Assembly: GCF_014842975.1 (NCBI RefSeq)
Contig: NZ_JACYXK010000025.1
Span: 1-64,000 of the forward strand
DNA from: Rhodanobacter sp. DHB23
GTDB lineage: Bacteria; Pseudomonadota; Gammaproteobacteria; Xanthomonadales; Rhodanobacteraceae
Length of the DNA: 64,000 nt
Reading direction: 5' to 3'
Both the position numbers and the translations under genes were made by a program. How positions within the stretch are numbered: position 1 is the first letter of the stretch; every line of letters starts with the position of its first letter. The notes under the pieces are model-generated. The model searched no databases. It was not told where the DNA came from and saw only the letters and a program-made list of their open reading frames with translations. Below, piece after piece: positions 27,577-61,509 of this stretch.

Positions 27577-27606
27577 CCGTCGATTGTAGCGGCGCGACCG
27601 CCGCCT

Positions 27607-27680
27607 GTAGGCGCACCCTGTGCGCGATGGCTCTGGTGCTTGATCGAAGCGGGAGCCATCGCGCACAGGGTGCGCTCCTA
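27607..27680. repeat. REP-like palindrome, family A copy 4
   Basis: GTAGGCGCACCCTGTGCGCG...CGCGCACAGGGTGCGCTCCTA with core ATGGCTCTGGTGCTTGATCG, almost identical to copy 1. It lies between ubiJ and trmL. On the minus strand it contributes the TAG stop of trmL. Confidence 0.9.
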
Positions 27681-28145
27681 TGCGAGCGCGCCGTCAAAGC
27701 CGAGTTGCCGCCATGCCTCGTACACCGCGACGGCCACGGTATTGGACAGGTTGAGGCTGCGGCTGTCCGGCTGCATCGGCAGGCGCAGGCGCTGCGCCTC
27801 GGGGAGGGCGTCCAGCACCTCGCCCGGCAGTCCGGCGGTTTCGCAGCCGAACAGCAGCGCGTCGCCGTCGGCATAGCGGGCATCGACGTGGCGCACGCGG
27901 CCGCGCGTGGTGAAGGCGAACACGCGCGGCTGGCCGATGCTGGCGAGGCAATCGTCGAGGCTGTCGTGCACCGCCACGCGGGCGTACTCGTGGTAATCCA
28001 GCCCGGCGCGGCGCAGGCGTGCGTCGTCGAGCTCGAAACCCAGCGGGCGGACCAGGTGCAGCGCGGCGCCGGTGTTGGCACACAGCCGGATGGCGTTGCC
28101 GGTGTTCGGCGGAATCTCGGGGCGGAACAGGATGACGTGCAGCAT
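27678..28145 (-). CDS. trmL: tRNA (cytidine/uridine-34 2'-O)-methyltransferase TrmL
   Basis: A 155-aa SPOUT methyltransferase acting on the wobble base of tRNA-Leu. The N-terminus [20 protein letters not shown] and the SAM-knot motif [20 protein letters not shown] are diagnostic. Length is typical. Its TAG stop is built from the repeat at 27607-27680. It lies 49 bp downstream of two small membrane-protein genes on the same strand and could be co-transcribed with them from their sigma-54 promoter. Confidence 0.95.
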
Positions 28146-28194
28146 CCGGTGATTATCGCGTGCGCATGGCTGCGCAGGCGAGCTGGCGATGCGA

Positions 28195-28365
28195 TCAGCC
28201 GCGCGGCAGCGGGCAGGTCGTGGCCGTCGTGGCGCAGGCGGCGCTCGTGGTCGCCAGCGCGTGGTTGGCGGCCGGGCGTGCGATCAGCATCGAACCCAGC
28301 ACCGAAGCGCAGACCAGCAGGCAGGCGGCGAACAGGCCGCCGAGCATCAGGGTTTCGTGTTTCAT
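28195..28365 (-). CDS. Small membrane protein (56 aa), paralogue of its upstream neighbour
   Basis: [19 protein letters not shown] starts a protein with one transmembrane helix (roughly residues 6-29) and a short tail containing two cysteines and ending CPLPRG. It aligns with the upstream 67-aa gene (MK-x-E-x-LML-x2-LF-x-ACLLVC...VLG-x-ML; both end CP..LP.G or CPLPRG). AAGGAATAA precedes the ATG. The tandem similarity and ribosome site support translation. No known family was recognised. Confidence 0.65.
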
Positions 28366-28398
28366 GGCGTTATTCCTTCAATCGCGATGTGGAGAGGT

Positions 28399-28602
28399 TC
28401 AGCCCGGCAGGCGCGGGCAGATCACGCCGTCGGCCGGCAGTGCACATTGCGCGGGGCTGGCCAGCAGGCCGTTGGCGACGTTGCCGCCGGTGGCCAGTCC
28501 GACCGATGCGGGGAGCGGCTTCAGCATCGTGCCCAGCACCAGTACGCAAACCAGCAGGCAGGCGACGAACAGGCTGCTCAACATCAGGTTCTCGTATTTC
28601 AT
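28399..28602 (-). CDS. Small membrane protein (67 aa) behind a sigma-54 promoter
   Basis: MKYENLMLSSLFVACLLVC begins a single-helix membrane protein, followed by a tail with two cysteines (PAQC ... VICPRLPG). A CGGAGA ribosome site precedes ATG 28602, which lies about 35 nt after the start site predicted from the -24/-12 promoter. A paralogue follows 33 bp downstream. The helix-then-cysteine-tail layout suggests the tail faces the periplasm, but topology is inferred. No known family recognised. Confidence 0.7.
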   Translation of the reverse strand: MKYENLMLSSLFVACLLVCVLVLGTMLKPLPASVGLATGGNVANGLLASPAQCALPADGVICPRLPG

Positions 28603-28647
28603 GGCATGTCTCCGATTGGGGTGGTTGTCCTTGTGCGATGTAGGGAG

Positions 28648-28664
28648 AGCAATCCGCGTGCCAA
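28648..28664 (-). promoter_or_regulatory. Consensus sigma-54 promoter for the tandem small membrane proteins
   Basis: On the minus strand: TTGGCACGCGGATTGCT, a full match to TTGGCACG-N4-TTGCT with GG-N10-GC spacing. The predicted start is about 28637. Both small genes and perhaps trmL lie downstream. Confidence 0.75.
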
Positions 28665-28731
28665 GCCGAGAAGTGCTTGCAAGTTATTGAGAAAACTTGA
28701 TTTTCATGAATGGCTTGGTGCCCGGGTCGCT

Positions 28732-28743
28732 TGTCCGCGGACA
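28732..28743. promoter_or_regulatory. Palindrome TGTCCGCGGACA, candidate enhancer-binding site
   Basis: A 12-bp perfect palindrome, followed by two more GGACAG half-sites in the next 25 bp. It lies about 95-105 bp upstream of the predicted sigma-54 start, the usual position for an activator. It also lies upstream of the M16 peptidase gene on the other strand, so it could serve that promoter instead. Confidence 0.35.
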
Positions 28744-28853
28744 GTCGGACAGGCAAACCGGACAGCCGGCCGCAGGCGTGCCTTTGGTCATCTGGCAAGA
28801 ATTTGCGACCTCCCGTAGGCTGGTCCGACACCCAACCCGAAAGGAGCACCACG

Positions 28854-31727
28854 ATGGGAAGCAAGCCCCTGGCCGCGCTGATCGCGGGCCTGTTGAGCGC
28901 CTCGGCCGGCCTCGCGCCGAACGTCGCGATGGCCGCCGCGCAAACCGCGCCGGCCACGCAGCAGGTTCCGGACATCGCCTACACCCGTTTCACCCTGCCG
29001 AACGGCCTCACCGTGATCGTGCACGAGGACCACAAGGCGCCGGTGGTGGCGGTGAGCATCTGGTACCACATCGGTTCGGCCGACGAGCCGAAGGGCAAGA
29101 CCGGCTTCGCCCATCTGTTCGAGCACCTGATGTTCTCGGGTTCGGAGCACCACAAGGGCACCTACTTCCAGCCGTTCGAACTGGCTGGCGCCACCGACAT
29201 GAACGGCACCACCTGGTTCGACCGCACCAACTATTTCGAGACCGTGCCGACCACCGCGCTGGACATGGCGTTGTGGATGGAATCCGACCGCATGGGCCAC
29301 CTGCTCGACGCGATCGGCCAGAAGGAACTCGACACCCAGCGCGGCGTGGTGCAGAACGAGAAGCGCCAGGGCGAGAACCGCCCCTATGGCCGCGTGGACG
29401 AGAACATCCTCGCCGAGACCTATCCCGCCAACCATCCCTACCAGCACGACACCATCGGCTCGATGGCCGACTTGAACGCGGCCTCGCTGGACGACGTGAA
29501 GGGCTGGTTCCACGCCAACTACGGCGCCGCCAACACCACCCTGGTGCTGGCCGGCGACATCACGCTGGCCGAGGCGCGCGCGAAGGCGCTGAAGTATTTC
29601 GGCGACATCCCCGCCGGCCAGCCGGTGGCGCACCAGCAGCCGTGGATCACCCCGCTGGCCAAGTCCACCCGCGGCGTGCAGCACGACCACGTGGCGCAGC
29701 CACGCATCTACCGCACCTGGGTGGTGCCGCAGCTCGGCAGCGACGCGGCGATCCAGCTCGACCTCGCCAGCACCGTGCTGGGCGGCGGCAAGACTTCGCG
29801 GCTGTACCAGCGGCTGGTCTACCAGGACAAGCTGGTGGACGACGTCTCCGCCGGCATCGCGCCGTTCGCGCTGGCCAGCCAGTTCCAGATCCAGGCCGAC
29901 GTGAAGCAGGGCGTTGATCCGGCCAGGGTGGAAGCGGCCATCGACGCGGTGCTCAAGGACTTCCTCGCCAACGGCCCCACCGCCGACGAACTCGACCGCG
30001 CCAGGATCGGCAACCGCGCGCAGTTCATCCGCGGGCTGGAGAAGGTGGGCGGCTTCGGCGGCAAGGCGGTGATCCTCGCCGAGGGCCAGGTCTATCGCGG
30101 CGATCCCGGTGCCTACAGGCATGACCTCGAACGTGCCGATGCGGCCACGCCGGCCAGCGTCAAGGCCGCGTCCGACGAGTGGCTCAGCAAGGGCGACTAC
30201 CAGCTCACCGTGCTGCCTGCCGGCAAGGGTTTCGACCCGGCCGCCGAGGACGCGGCGGTGAAGCCGCTGGGCGATGCCGCCGGCAAGCCGCAGCCCAGGC
30301 TGCCGGCCGCGCATGCCTATAGCGTGACCAGGAGCGACGTGGACCGCGCCAAGGGCGTGCCGCAGGTCGATTCGTTCCCGTCGTTGAGCTTCCCGAAGCT
30401 CGAGCGCGGCAAGCTGAGCAACGGCATCGAAGTGGTGCTCGCCCAGCGCCACGCCATTCCGGTGACGCAGGTGCAACTGCTGTTCGACGCCGGCTACGCC
30501 GCCGACCAGGGCGGCAAGCTCGGCACGGCAAGCTTCGCCTCGCGCCTGATGAACGAGAGCACCACCAGGATGGATTCGGTCGCCGTGGCCGAAGCGCGCC
30601 AGCGCCTCGGCGCGATCACCAGCGTTGGTTGCGGCCTGGACAGCTGCAGCGCCTCGCTCAACGCGCTCAACGACCAGCTCAAGCCCTCGCTGGCGCTGTT
30701 CGCCGACATCGTGCGCGATCCCGCGTTCAATGCCGCCGACATCGACCGCGTGCGCGGCCAGTGGCTGGCCGACATCGCGCAGGAGAAGACCCAGCCCACC
30801 GGCCTCGCGCTGCGCACCCTGCCGCCGCTGCTGTACGGCGCCAACCACGCCTACGGCATCCCGTTCACCGGCAGCGGCACCGAGGCCAGCATCGAGTCGC
30901 TCACCGCGGACGACCTGCGCACGTTCCAGCACGACTGGCTGCGCCCGGACAACGTGAAGATCCTCGTGGCCGGCGACACCACGCTGGACAAGATCATTCC
31001 CGAACTGAACGCCGCCTTCGGCGACTGGAAGGCGCCGGCCGGCGCGGTGCCGCACAAGAACATCGCGCAGGTGGCCGCGCAATCCAGGCCGCGCGTGTTC
31101 CTGATCAACCGTTCCGATGCGCCGCAGTCGCTGATCATGGCCGGCCTGCTCGCACCGTCCACGCGTGCGCCGGACAACCTCGCCGTGCAGGTGGCGAACG
31201 GCGCCTTCGGCGGCACCTTCACCTCGCGCCTCAACATGAACCTGCGCGAGGACAAGCGCTGGGCCTACGGCGCGCAGAGCTTCCTGATGGACGCCCAGGG
31301 CCAGCGCCCGATGCTGTTCTACGCGCCGGTGCAGACCGACAAGACCGCGCCGTCGGCCGAGGAGGTGCTGAAGGAGGCGCGTGCCGTGATCGGCGACCGG
31401 CCGCTGACCGACGCCGAGATCGCCAAGATCAAGGACAGCCGCATCCGCGCCTTGCCGGGCAGCTACGAGACCACCTCCGCGGTGCTCGGCGCGCTGGACG
31501 GCATCGTCGAGTACGGTCGCCCCGACGATTACGTGCAGACGCTGAAGCCGCGGCTGGAAGCCATCACGCAGGCCGACGCCGAGGCCGCGATCAAGGAGAT
31601 CGTGCAGCCTGCGGCGATGACCTGGGTGATCGTGGGCGACCTCAAGCAGATCGAGGCGCCGGTGCGCGCACTGAACCTCGGCGACGTGCAGGTGCTCGAC
31701 GCCGACGGCAAGCCGGTATCGAAGTAG
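28854..31727 (+). CDS. M16 family zinc metallopeptidase (pitrilysin-like)
   Basis: A 957-aa exported protease with a signal peptide (about residues 1-27, ending AMAAAQ). The N-terminal M16 domain has the inverted zinc motif HLFEH (87-91) and the distal glutamate in the GVVQNEKRQGENRPYG region. A second, inactive M16 repeat occupies the C-terminal half, so the protein is a fused two-domain enzyme. It probably degrades peptides in the periplasm. Start ATG 28854 has AAGGAG eight bases upstream. A REP-like hairpin and a terminator follow. Confidence 0.92.
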   Translation: MGSKPLAALIAGLLSASAGLAPNVAMAAAQTAPATQQVPDIAYTRFTLPNGLTVIVHEDHKAPVVAVSIWYHIGSADEPKGKTGFAHLFEHLMFSGSEHHKGTYFQPFELAGATDMNGTTWFDRTNYFETVPTTALDMALWMESDRMGHLLDAIGQKELDTQRGVVQNEKRQGENRPYGRVDENILAETYPANHPYQHDTIGSMADLNAASLDDVKGWFHANYGAANTTLVLAGDITLAEARAKALKYFGDIPAGQPVAHQQPWITPLAKSTRGVQHDHVAQPRIYRTWVVPQLGSDAAIQLDLASTVLGGGKTSRLYQRLVYQDKLVDDVSAGIAPFALASQFQIQADVKQGVDPARVEAAIDAVLKDFLANGPTADELDRARIGNRAQFIRGLEKVGGFGGKAVILAEGQVYRGDPGAYRHDLERADAATPASVKAASDEWLSKGDYQLTVLPAGKGFDPAAEDAAVKPLGDAAGKPQPRLPAAHAYSVTRSDVDRAKGVPQVDSFPSLSFPKLERGKLSNGIEVVLAQRHAIPVTQVQLLFDAGYAADQGGKLGTASFASRLMNESTTRMDSVAVAEARQRLGAITSVGCGLDSCSASLNALNDQLKPSLALFADIVRDPAFNAADIDRVRGQWLADIAQEKTQPTGLALRTLPPLLYGANHAYGIPFTGSGTEASIESLTADDLRTFQHDWLRPDNVKILVAGDTTLDKIIPELNAAFGDWKAPAGAVPHKNIAQVAAQSRPRVFLINRSDAPQSLIMAGLLAPSTRAPDNLAVQVANGAFGGTFTSRLNMNLREDKRWAYGAQSFLMDAQGQRPMLFYAPVQTDKTAPSAEEVLKEARAVIGDRPLTDAEIAKIKDSRIRALPGSYETTSAVLGALDGIVEYGRPDDYVQTLKPRLEAITQADAEAAIKEIVQPAAMTWVIVGDLKQIEAPVRALNLGDVQVLDADGKPVSK

Positions 31728-57276: not shown

Positions 57277-58419
57277 ATGAACGATTTAGCTTTGACCAAT
57301 GCGCGCATCGTGCTCGACGATGGCGTCATCCACGGCACCCTGATCGCCCGCAACGGCATGATCCGGCTGGTGGAGGAAGGATCGACGCAGGCGCCGGGCG
57401 CCATCGACTGCGAAGGCGATTACGTCATCCCGGGCTTGATCGAGCTGCACACCGACAATCTCGAAAAACACCTGATGCCGCGCGCCGGCGTGTTGTGGCC
57501 CTCGATCCCCGCCGTGCTGACGCATGACGCCCAGGTGGTCGCCGCCGGCATCACCACGGTATTCGACGCGCTGTCGGTGGGCGACGTGGAAGAGGAAAGC
57601 GTGCGCATCGATACCTTGCGCAGCACCTACGACGCCATCCTCGATGGCCAGTCCAGCGGCGCATTGCGCGCCGACCACTGGATCCACCTGCGTTGCGAGC
57701 TGGCCTATCCGCGCCTGCTGGAAACGCTGGAACCGCTGATGGACCACGGCAGCGTGCGGTTGGTCTCGCTGATGGACCACACCCCGGGCCAGCGCCAGTA
57801 CCGCGACCTCGCGCAATACCGCAAGTACTACAGCAAGAACCACATGAGCTGGACCGAAGACGAGTTCGCCGAGGTGGTGAAGCGCCGCACCGAACAGCAG
57901 GCGCAATACAGCGCCCGGCATGAAAGCGCCGTGCTGGCCATGGCCCACGGCCGCGACGTGGTGCTGGCCAGCCACGACGACACCGATGCGCGGCAGGTGG
58001 AACACGCACAACGCATCGGCGTGACGATCTCCGAATTCCCGACCACGCAGGAAGCCGCCGACGCGGCGCATGCGCATGGGCTCACCACGATCATGGGTGC
58101 GCCGAACGTCGTGCGCGGCGGCTCGCACTCGGGCAACGTCGCGGCGCTGGAGCTGGCGCGCACCCACCGCCTGGACATGCTGTCGTCCGACTACGTCCCG
58201 GCCAGCCTGCTGCACGGCGCCTTCCTGCTGCATGCGCAGGCCGGCTGGTCGATGCCCAGGGCGATGGCGACGGTGAGCCGCAATCCGGCGAAGGCGCTGG
58301 GTTTCGACGACCGCGGCTCGCTGAAGGCCGGCATGCGCGCCGATGTGGTGCGCATGCGCGAGGTGGCTGGCCTGCCGATCGTGCGTAATGTCTGGGTGGG
58401 CGGGCAGCGCGCGTTCTGA
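57277..58419 (+). CDS. phnM: Ribose 1-methylphosphonate 5-triphosphate diphosphatase
   Basis: A 380-aa amidohydrolase-fold enzyme releasing pyrophosphate to give the PhnJ substrate. Metal-site region GLIELHTDNLEKHLMPR, then MDHTPGQRQY, LASHDDTDARQVEHA and GGSHSGN. The PhnM-specific segment is NHMSWTEDEFAEVV. The preceding gap has no strong ribosome site, so translation may depend on readthrough from phnL or weak initiation. Terminator follows. Confidence 0.94.
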   Translation: MNDLALTNARIVLDDGVIHGTLIARNGMIRLVEEGSTQAPGAIDCEGDYVIPGLIELHTDNLEKHLMPRAGVLWPSIPAVLTHDAQVVAAGITTVFDALSVGDVEEESVRIDTLRSTYDAILDGQSSGALRADHWIHLRCELAYPRLLETLEPLMDHGSVRLVSLMDHTPGQRQYRDLAQYRKYYSKNHMSWTEDEFAEVVKRRTEQQAQYSARHESAVLAMAHGRDVVLASHDDTDARQVEHAQRIGVTISEFPTTQEAADAAHAHGLTTIMGAPNVVRGGSHSGNVAALELARTHRLDMLSSDYVPASLLHGAFLLHAQAGWSMPRAMATVSRNPAKALGFDDRGSLKAGMRADVVRMREVAGLPIVRNVWVGGQRAF

Positions 58420-58478
58420 GCTTGTTCCATCGCTTGCCTTGCAGGCGGCGGCATGACGGCAAGCTGCAATGGGCATCG

Positions 58479-58514
58479 TGGAAAGCAGGGGTCAAACCCT
58501 GCTTTTTCATTTTC
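58479..58514 (+). terminator. Terminator after phnM
   Basis: AAAGCAGGG-GTCAAA-CCCTGCTTT followed by TTCATTTT (arms about 58482-58506). Confidence 0.8.
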
Positions 58515-58839
58515 GATCGCCGCGTCCGCAGGTGCCGCCGTTGCACGACAACGGCGGATCGTTGGCCCGCGCGAACGGCCGCGCGAAACCCATCGCGTCG
58601 CGCAATTTCATGCGCGTTTCCGCGCGAAATGCATGCCCTGTTCGCGCGCGCGAAAGATCTCCCGAAGCCGCGCGCATCCGCGGCGCAATGCACACCGGCA
58701 AAGACGATAGACAGCCGACGAACTTGGCTAGGCCAAGTCACAGGCGTTTCATCGCCGCTCCCTAGCCTTCCCCGGGTTGCAGCATCAGGCCTTTGTGCCG
58801 GCACTTTTCCGTTAATACACCCTTGAGGGGGATGCCATC
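58515..58839 (+). promoter_or_regulatory. Long leader region of the TonB receptor gene with a palindrome
   Basis: 325 bp without a credible gene. Contains several CGCGCGAAA direct repeats around 58563-58665 and an ACTTGGC-TAG-GCCAAGT perfect inverted repeat at 58722-58738. A possible -10 TAATAC lies at 58813-58818, but no matching -35. It is presumably where the nutrient-responsive control of the receptor acts; the regulator is unknown. Confidence 0.4.
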
Positions 58840-61509
58840 TTGAAGATCAATCCAATCACCTGCGCGGTACTGGCCGCGCTCGCGGTAAGTCGCGTGTCCC
58901 ATGCCGACACCACCACGCCGCCGGCTCCGGCGGCCCAGCCCGCCGCGGCGGTCACCCAACCGTCGCAGCCGACGCCGTCCGCCAACTCCGGCGCGGCCAA
59001 CACGCCCAGCACGGCCAACGCAGCCACGCTCGGCACGGTCAACGTGACCGCGCAGCACACCGTGCAGGACATCCAGCAGGTGCCGATCACGATCCAGGCC
59101 TTCACCGGCGCCACGCTGCAGCAGCTGAACGTCCAGGATTTCCAGGACATCATCAAGTACCTGCCCAACGTGACCTTCGCGACGAACGGTCCGGGCCAGG
59201 GCAACATCTACATGCGCGGCCTCAGCACCGGCTTCCTCGGCAACCAGTCCAGCGCATCGATCGCGCCGTTCCCGAACGTCGCGGTGTACCTCGACGACCA
59301 GTCGATGCAGTTCCCGGCGCGCAACCTCGACATCTACATGGTCGACATGGAGCGCCTCGAGGTGCTCGAAGGTCCGCAGGGCACGCTGTTCGGCGGTGGC
59401 GCCGAGGCGGGCGCCGTGCGCTACATCACCAACAAGCCCGACCTCGACAAGGTCAGCGGCAGCGCCGAGGCCAGCGCCGGTGCCACCGCCGGTGGCGGCC
59501 CGAACAATTCCGCCAACGCGGTGCTGAACTTCCCGATCATCCCCGGCACGCTGGCCGTGCGCGGCGTGATCTACAACGACCACCAGGGCGGCTACATCGA
59601 CAACGTGCTGAGCACGTTCACGCGCCAGCCCACCGATGGCGGCGGCGCGATGGCGCCTTACGTGGCCGCCGGCAGCGCCGCGGGCACCAACAATTATTCC
59701 GTGGCGCAGAACAACTGGAACCCGGTCGACTACCAGGGCGCACGCCTGTCCGCGCTGTGGAAGATCAACGACGACTGGAACTTCCTGATCGCCGAGAGCT
59801 ACCAGAACCTGGACGCGAACGGCCAGTCCTCGACCTACCCGGTCGGCACGGATGGCCAGAAGCTCGGCACCGACCAGATCACCTCGTTCGTGCCGGCCTG
59901 GAACAACGACCACTTCACCAACACCTCGTGGACCTTGAACGGCCAGGTCGGCGACCTCTCGCTGGTGTACACCGGCGGCTACACCAACCGCCGCATCAGC
60001 GAGCAGCAGGATTACACCAACTACTCGCGCAGCGCGGGCGGCATGTACTACCAGTGCACCGGCACCTCGGCCGGCCTGTCCAGCGCCGGCAAGCCGATCT
60101 GCTATTCGCCAGTCGGTTACTGGAATGACCACGTCAACAGCACGCACCAGAGCCACGAGCTGCGCCTGATGACACCGGAAGACGGTCGCCTGCGCGCCAT
60201 CGGCGGCCTGTACTACGAAGATTTCAACATCGACGACCACATGGACTTCAACTACAAGACGATCCCGTCTTGTACGCCCGCGAACCTCGCCGCGGCGCTG
60301 GCCGGTGGCTATCCCTGCGTGGCCGATGCGGAATCCTCACCGGGCGTGGTGATGCCCGACAACACCGCGTTCGGTGAAGTCGAGCACCGCGGCTACAAGC
60401 AGGAAGCGGTGTTCGGCTCGGTGTCGTACGACATCGTCCCGGACGTGCTGACCGTGACCGCCGGCACGCGCTACTACCACTATTCCGAATGGCAGACCGG
60501 CACGGAGTTCTACACCACTACCGCGCAGGTGAACGTGCCCAACGGTACCTACGTGGGCAACGACTCGGTGATGAACTACCACCAGGACTACCACGGCTTC
60601 AAGAGCCGCGCGAACCTGCTGTGGAACATCACGCCGGACATGATGCTGTACTACACCTTCTCGCAGGGCTTCCGCCCTGGCGGCTTCAACCGCACCACCT
60701 CCGATGTGGCCAAGCTCGACGGCGTGGCGCAGTACAAGAAGCCGACCAGCTACGCGCCCGACACGTTGACCAACAACGAGATCGGCTTCAAGTCCACGTT
60801 CTTCGACGACCGCCTGCTGCTCAACGCCTCGATCTACGACATGCGTTGGGACAACGTGCAGATGCAGTTCTTCAACCCGTTGGTGCTGGGCAACACCACC
60901 TTCGCGGTCAACGGGCCGAACTACAAGGTGGACGGCGGCGAGCTGCAGTTCCAGGCGCGCATCACCGACGGCCTGTCGCTGATGGGCTCGGCGTCGCTCA
61001 ACCACGCCAAGCAGACCAACTCGCCCTGCCTGGTCGACAACATCCCGGGCTCCGCCGCCTACAACTCGTGCATCGTCGAGACCGGTGCAGTGGGCGCGGT
61101 GTCGTCGTTCGCCAACCCGTTCGGCGAAGTCGGCAGCGTGCCGGCCTTCTCGCCGCGCTCGCAGTACAACCTGCGCCTGCGCTACGACTGGACGCTGGTG
61201 GACAACTACAAGGCGTTCTGGCAGGTCGGCGCCAGCCACATGGGTTCGATGTACAACCAGCCGGCCACCTATCCGAGCGGCGACGGCGTGACCGACATCA
61301 CCACGGTGGAGCTGCGCTACCTGCAGGCCGCCTACACCACTTACGACGCGTCGATCGGCGTGGCCAAGGACAACTGGAACATGTCGATCTTCGGCACCAA
61401 CCTCGGCAACAGCCACGCCAGCACGTTCACCTCGTCGGCCGAATTCATCGAGTCGCAGGTGCCGATCCATCCGCGCGTGATCGGCTTGAAGGTGGGCTTC
61501 AAGTTCTGA
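58840..61509 (+). CDS. TonB-dependent receptor
   Basis: An 889-aa outer-membrane active transporter. The start is TTG at 58840 (GGGGG eight bases upstream; the ATG at 58832 terminates after 3 codons). Signal peptide of about 22 residues, then a Pro/Ala/Gln-rich linker and the plug domain (IQQVPITIQAFTGATLQQLN, MRGLSTG, LEVLEGPQGTLFGGGAEAGA). A 22-strand-type barrel ends in VIGLKVGFKF. The substrate is unknown; no adjacent TonB/ExbB or CAZyme gene indicates it. The TPR-sulfotransferase gene follows after a terminator. Confidence 0.92.
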   Translation: MKINPITCAVLAALAVSRVSHADTTTPPAPAAQPAAAVTQPSQPTPSANSGAANTPSTANAATLGTVNVTAQHTVQDIQQVPITIQAFTGATLQQLNVQDFQDIIKYLPNVTFATNGPGQGNIYMRGLSTGFLGNQSSASIAPFPNVAVYLDDQSMQFPARNLDIYMVDMERLEVLEGPQGTLFGGGAEAGAVRYITNKPDLDKVSGSAEASAGATAGGGPNNSANAVLNFPIIPGTLAVRGVIYNDHQGGYIDNVLSTFTRQPTDGGGAMAPYVAAGSAAGTNNYSVAQNNWNPVDYQGARLSALWKINDDWNFLIAESYQNLDANGQSSTYPVGTDGQKLGTDQITSFVPAWNNDHFTNTSWTLNGQVGDLSLVYTGGYTNRRISEQQDYTNYSRSAGGMYYQCTGTSAGLSSAGKPICYSPVGYWNDHVNSTHQSHELRLMTPEDGRLRAIGGLYYEDFNIDDHMDFNYKTIPSCTPANLAAALAGGYPCVADAESSPGVVMPDNTAFGEVEHRGYKQEAVFGSVSYDIVPDVLTVTAGTRYYHYSEWQTGTEFYTTTAQVNVPNGTYVGNDSVMNYHQDYHGFKSRANLLWNITPDMMLYYTFSQGFRPGGFNRTTSDVAKLDGVAQYKKPTSYAPDTLTNNEIGFKSTFFDDRLLLNASIYDMRWDNVQMQFFNPLVLGNTTFAVNGPNYKVDGGELQFQARITDGLSLMGSASLNHAKQTNSPCLVDNIPGSAAYNSCIVETGAVGAVSSFANPFGEVGSVPAFSPRSQYNLRLRYDWTLVDNYKAFWQVGASHMGSMYNQPATYPSGDGVTDITTVELRYLQAAYTTYDASIGVAKDNWNMSIFGTNLGNSHASTFTSSAEFIESQVPIHPRVIGLKVGFKF

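Follow-up and report, generated by a model that had tools for sequence, protein, structure and literature searches.

Two small single-helix proteins of Rhodanobacter as predicted members of an exporter-centered sigma-54 regulon

The window analyzed here, a 64,000-nucleotide stretch of the Rhodanobacter sp. DHB23 genome, contains two very small genes in tandem behind a sigma-54 promoter, and this arrangement raises the question of what kind of proteins they encode and which regulatory system they serve. The evidence presented below makes ORF1 and ORF2 well-supported members, on sequence grounds, of a sigma-54 regulon centered on an exporter operon.

Two small genes and their promoter

ORF1 (28399-28602, minus strand; 67 aa, 67 codons) and its paralogue ORF2 (28195-28365, minus strand; 56 aa, 56 codons) share the N-terminal start MK-x-E-x-LML..LF-x-ACLLVC. 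ORF1 is predicted to form a single membrane helix, with the top 19-residue hydropathy window (2.78) beginning at residue 6, followed by a tail with CALPADGVICPR; the tail of ORF2 is shorter and less constrained. Cysteines are present in both tails, and the tandem paralogues with two-cysteine tails described in the earlier note are found as such in the window. An M16 peptidase gene is the divergent neighbor of their promoter region, and a trmL-type SpoU methylase gene (27678-28145, minus strand; PF00588) follows ORF2.

The sigma-54 promoter TTGGCACGCGGATTGCT (28648-28664, minus strand) lies 45 bases from the start codon of ORF1. It is a perfect -24/-12 match to TGGCACG-N4-TTGC with GG-N10-GC spacing, as the earlier note had claimed, and has no other exact copy across the 3.97 Mb genome. 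The palindrome TGTCCGCGGACA (28732-28743), a probable activator site and putative enhancer, was also recognized in that note; it is present and conserved, but at 68 bp upstream of the TGGC it is somewhat nearer than the 'about 100 bp' given there. Two additional TGTCCG half-sites on the minus strand lie 8 bp (28746-28751) and 21 bp (28759-28764) upstream of the palindrome, and the second of these is found in all 26 of the promoter-keeping loci described below. Between enhancer and promoter, an IHF-like site TCTCAATAACTTG (28680-28692, minus strand) agrees in eight of nine letters with the IHF consensus. When spacers were scored against this consensus, 40 of 91 reached at least 8 on either strand, compared to 4.6 expected from shuffles that preserve base composition only, with related spacers being non-independent. 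The genome has one rpoN gene, and its eleven PF00158 matches, marking sigma-54 activators, include six in which the full domain is covered. A third exact palindrome (C29:83244-83255, L031) sits between genes labeled by eye as isoaspartate methyltransferase-like and TetR-like; no box was found by the strict pattern within the surrounding 3 kb.

A conservation scan across 84,980 species genomes returned 27 loci, among them a Hymenobacter locus (L028) that was judged a chance match and excluded; the remaining 26 relatives and the window make up the 27 loci compared. Upstream of the small genes, 26 of these 27 keep both the box and the core of the palindrome, GTCCGCGGAC, with a gap of 65-69 bp, which is the conservation that the earlier note had proposed to look for. 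The exception, a metagenome bin (L023), has neither box nor palindrome and counts against the explanation proposed below. The mean majority-base frequency is 0.90 in the box versus 0.56 in the spacer (25 loci, anchored on the box). ORF1 relatives occur in 26 loci; two small genes are present in each of the Rhodanobacter-titled loci and in L025 and L026, with the second gene of L003 reading as 24 aa only, and the Dyella loci have one.

Substitution patterns indicate that the small ORFs are under purifying selection. Estimates were made by the Nei-Gojobori method on pooled pairs, without a significance test, in 16 Dyella loci and in seven Rhodanobacter-type loci (the window, L002, L004-L007 and L026); L003, L023, L025 and L027 fall outside both groups. 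The dN/dS of ORF1 is 0.18 in the Dyella loci, and the Rhodanobacter-type values are 0.46 for ORF1 and 0.57 for ORF2; all of these are below 1, and a value near 1 is what the earlier note had named as speaking against its proposal. Constraint in Dyella ORF1 is stronger on the helix than on the tail (pN/pS 0.11 versus 0.30), and likewise in ORF2 the helix stands at 0.44 and the tail, near neutral, at 0.88. In Rhodanobacter-type ORF1 this is not so, with 0.58 for the helix versus 0.52 for the tail, which counts against the explanation proposed below.

These ratios bear on the reading that the short ORFs are leaders or spurious and that what the promoter drives is trmL and other genes further down. 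A trmL-like ORF does lie behind 18 of the 38 small genes read, and a weak scan of 27600-28900, in which fewer than one of each would be expected by chance, found no terminator-like or sigma-70-like site; between the small genes and trmL, terminator-like sites number 0 versus 0.8 in shuffles. Cotranscription of trmL with the small genes by read-through is possible. However, dN/dS is below 1, and the helix is encoded at unlinked loci too, the other 20 of the 38 small genes having no trmL behind them, and we regard leader or spurious ORFs as very improbable.

The small proteins appear to be single-helix inner-membrane proteins of a family new to Pfam and NCBIfam, in keeping with the undescribed family that the earlier note had postulated, and their sigma-54 box and enhancer are conserved. 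No Pfam model reached its cut-off with ORF1, ORF2 or the two relatives scanned, no NCBIfam model did so with ORF1 or ORF2, and the small proteins have no curated-model match to the MgrB family. A class-wide draw of 274 genomes, in which the 273 other than our own took in few from its order, gave a match in the own genome only, among the 21 entries listed. The family consensus is M-K-x-E-x-L-x-L-x2-L-F-x-A-C-x3-C-x6-M with one hydrophobic helix, and only E4, L8 and M26 are invariant among 19 diverse members. The membrane helix is common to all members, and tail length runs from zero to about 45 residues. The tail CALPxDGVxCPR with its two cysteines belongs to the trmL-linked ORF1 type, and the members of 28-52 aa were read without a cysteine tail; contrary to what the earlier note had implied, a tail with two cysteines does not characterize the family, and it was rejected as the functional core. 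A lipoprotein would have an invariant lipobox cysteine, and this assignment was rejected: some members have S or T in place of the first cysteine of the helix, and the preceding residue varies. A common helix with variable tails is consistent with contact between the helix and another membrane protein.

A promoter pattern across the family

The earlier note did not recognize that this promoter is part of a regulon extending through the family, with an exporter operon at its core; the last genes of that operon encode its own NtrC-type regulator and kinase. The regulon pattern was defined as GTCCGCGGAC, followed after 60-78 bp by TGGCAY-N5-TTGC. It occurs in 113 of the 147 genomes of the home family, and the reversed-pattern control gave 0 in each, which shows that the pattern is found more often than by chance. 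Across the order it is present in 65 of 299 genomes, every one of them from the home family.

The first gene was read behind 90 sites, made up of 30 loci from the family scan and 60 more taken in listed order, and not a random sample. It encodes a small protein of 28-73 aa with the common helix at 38 sites, the HlyD-type adaptor of a MacB/FtsX-type exporter operon at 27, an S33-type hydrolase at 14 and an FtsX-type permease at four; L123 was classed by hand as an adaptor, and the permease gene L093 is in another frame by one matching. The other seven are three DUF4440-type proteins, two proteins of about 320 aa, one trypsin-like protein and one further protein, with the DUF4440 and trypsin labels each taken from one scanned example. 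The hydrolases at these 14 sites show 65-72% identity, across 315-350 residues, with the hydrolase inside our own exporter operon, which matches the S33 family PF12146. Our own genome has three sites: the one in the window, one at the exporter operon on C13, and one before a 32 aa small-protein paralogue at C21:619870-622885 (L076), which is followed by a gene for a CarboxypepD_reg-domain protein.

At an E-value of 0.01, small-protein matches occur in 86 of the 147 family genomes, with up to ten per genome. All 82 genomes with a match at 1.8e-8 or better have the pattern, and 81 of them have an orthologue of the exporter-linked regulator. Among the 34 family genomes without the exact pattern, small-protein matches were found in two only, both weak (G032 and G099). 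These 34 genomes, most of which have the regulator, count against the explanation proposed below. In two of the genomes without an exact palindrome, from two genera (G004 and G026), a box lies 55-57 bp before the adaptor match, and the exporter promoters have TGTCC-type sites in a different arrangement.

The exporter cluster, its regulator and its kinase

On C13 this promoter type stands before a cluster of co-oriented genes spanning about 40 kb (C13:31756-71978; L085, L197, L086). The cluster has genes for one periplasmic adaptor and one LolD/MacB-type ATPase, 24 FtsX/MacB-like permease ORFs and a gene for one S33-type hydrolase, and ends with an NtrC-type response regulator (C13:33768-35105) and a kinase; it may be read as a single transcript. 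The permease ORFs form 12 alternating pairs of two types, with 35-100% identity to two Pfam-tested ones; the count of 24 includes ORF 57579-60152, and about 1.6 kb after the ATPase gene are not accounted for. We found no description of an exporter with 12 permease pairs under two-component control in the open-access literature searched. The cluster resembles the darobactin exporter DarC/DarD and the duplicated ADOP permeases of NCBIfam in having a related ATPase, adaptor and permease halves. However, all three models fall below their curated cut-offs; the adaptor passes the general RND_mfp model only, and the best NCBIfam match of the ATPase, DarD (NF038007), scores 252.9 bits, below the cut-off of 375.

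The response regulator has receiver, sigma-54 AAA+ and Fis-type HTH domains. The TGTC half-sites led us to consider the PEP-CTERM/PrsR regulon, and both identities were rejected: the regulator scores 351.1 bits against the PrsR model TIGR02915 (cut-off 502.6), and the kinase 58.7 bits against the PrsK model TIGR02916 (cut-off 300). An identity with GlrR/QseF was likewise rejected (292.3 versus 763 bits, NF011695). GlrR/QseF is similar in being a sigma-54 response regulator with TGTC/GACA inverted repeats, and the published account gives TGTC-N10-GACA as the site in its regulon (glmY; PMC4987338). The sites described here have a shorter TGTC-N4-GACA, another regulator and other targets.

Linkage of regulator and site was assessed in 40 genomes, 39 with completely listed sites and our own. 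In all 34 genomes with a site on the regulator's contig, a same-strand site is found 5-37 kb upstream of the regulator, compared to a roughly estimated chance expectation of 0.02 per genome; the regulator is on a site-free contig in five genomes and absent from one (G023). This linkage, together with the family-wide pattern and the classes of first genes, underlies the assignment of ORF1 and ORF2 to one arm of the regulon. Orthologues of the regulator are found in 139 of the 147 family genomes, versus 86 of 147 for the small proteins, which implies that the system can exist without them. Regulator orthologues also occur in several other families of the order, and this counts against the explanation proposed below; the two exporter loci read from another family have no such site, and the pattern was confined to the home family among the 299 genomes scanned from the order.

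These data also bear on whether the promoters answer to a different sigma-54 activator. G023 counts in favor of that alternative, having a small gene with a box (C1:2504432-2504712; L103, L199) and no regulator orthologue. However, its palindrome CGTCCGCGGACG is degenerate, as expected after loss of the activator, and its small gene is possibly an orphan target. A paralogous system with a wider TGTCCG palindrome also favors another activator; against it stands the linkage in 34 of 34 genomes, and we consider it unlikely. The paralogous exporter (C17:872-12677; L065, L091) has its own regulator, 45% identical, and its sigma-54 box has the palindrome TGTCCG-TTTG-CGGACA 93 bp upstream; the spacing of the half-sites may separate the C13 and C17 systems.

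Hydropathy peaks place about 21-27 residues between the two membrane helices of the kinase, the figure varying with the window chosen. Bce modules carry an OmpR-type regulator, and the exporter-linked regulator is not of that type. The kinase shares with BceS the very short outer loop, and the cluster shares with the BceAB-BceS system FtsX-type permeases and a co-encoded kinase, in modules that, according to PMC10314905, couple a kinase to an FtsX-type transporter. It differs from them in its adaptor-containing operon, its many paired permeases, its NtrC-type regulator and its sigma-54 promoters. By analogy, Bce modules would be the nearest model for a kinase that reads a membrane partner.

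A proposed role for the small proteins

We propose, as a probable reading, that ORF1 and ORF2 belong to the sigma-54 regulon of the exporter-linked NtrC-type regulator and that their products act by the helix on the exporter or the kinase. The short-loop kinase would act as a membrane sensor of peptide or envelope stress, perhaps via the permeases, and phosphorylate the response regulator, which would then bind the TGTCCG sites and, helped by bending at the IHF-like site, activate the sigma-54 polymerase. Its targets would include its own exporter operon, giving autoregulation, and the unlinked genes for small proteins and hydrolases. The small proteins would insert as single helices, N-terminus in and tail out, with the helix acting on the kinase, in the way MgrB acts on PhoQ, or on the permeases; their most likely role is that of single-helix regulators or subunits, of either the exporter or the kinase.

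One branch of this explanation, which we hold to be possible, makes the small proteins MgrB-like feedback regulators, induced by the regulator and damping the sensor kinase through helix contacts. Like MgrB, the feedback protein of PhoP/PhoQ, they are small single-helix inner-membrane proteins probably made under two-component control, and two cysteines are found in the tail of the trmL-linked ORF1 type; MgrB requires two periplasmic cysteines and the helix (PMC8404706). The differences are that there is no sequence match to MgrB, that a sigma-54 box stands in place of PhoP control, and that there are several paralogues, up to ten matches per genome, many of them, including the members of 28-52 aa, missing the tail and its cysteines.

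Equally tentative is the reading in which the small proteins are accessory subunits of the FtsX/MacB-like permeases that tune pump assembly or substrate choice, for which AcrZ on AcrB is the comparison case. They share their promoter type with the exporter operon, the helix is the part common to all members, and both permeases (24 in our own operon) and small proteins are multiplied. However, none of the three small-protein matches in our genome is inside the exporter operon. A speculative extension, which we think unlikely to be correct, has one ATPase and one adaptor serving interchangeable permease pairs, with the small proteins (28-73 aa), scattered over the chromosome under the same sigma-54 regulator, selecting or gating the active pairs or letting the kinase read them. 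Were it true, such pairs would make up a modular exporter tuned by micro-subunits.

The exporter also invites the suggestion that the small proteins are precursors of secreted peptides, darobactin- or bacteriocin-like, which leave by it. DarD is the best NCBIfam match of its ATPase, albeit below the cut-off, and peptidase-like hydrolases lie behind the same promoter type. The common part is nevertheless a membrane helix, with tails from none to about 45 residues, which speaks against a secreted peptide; moreover the ORF2 tail drifts, and no obvious modification enzyme was seen by eye among downstream ORFs within about 0.7 kb. We consider secreted precursors improbable, and retain the action of the helix on exporter or kinase as the preferred explanation.

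In a published survey, sigma-54 is connected with control of the cell exterior (PMC3162934), and the abstract does not name the present regulon or the small proteins; we recognized no description of either among the papers listed from the open-access literature searched. The small-protein family can now be given a likely regulatory context, together with a candidate activator, a DNA site and co-regulated genes, and deletion can be used to test the role of its members. One promoter type has repeatedly acquired single-helix proteins as its targets, and the regulator they would share with a giant exporter-like cluster offers a clear clue to their function.
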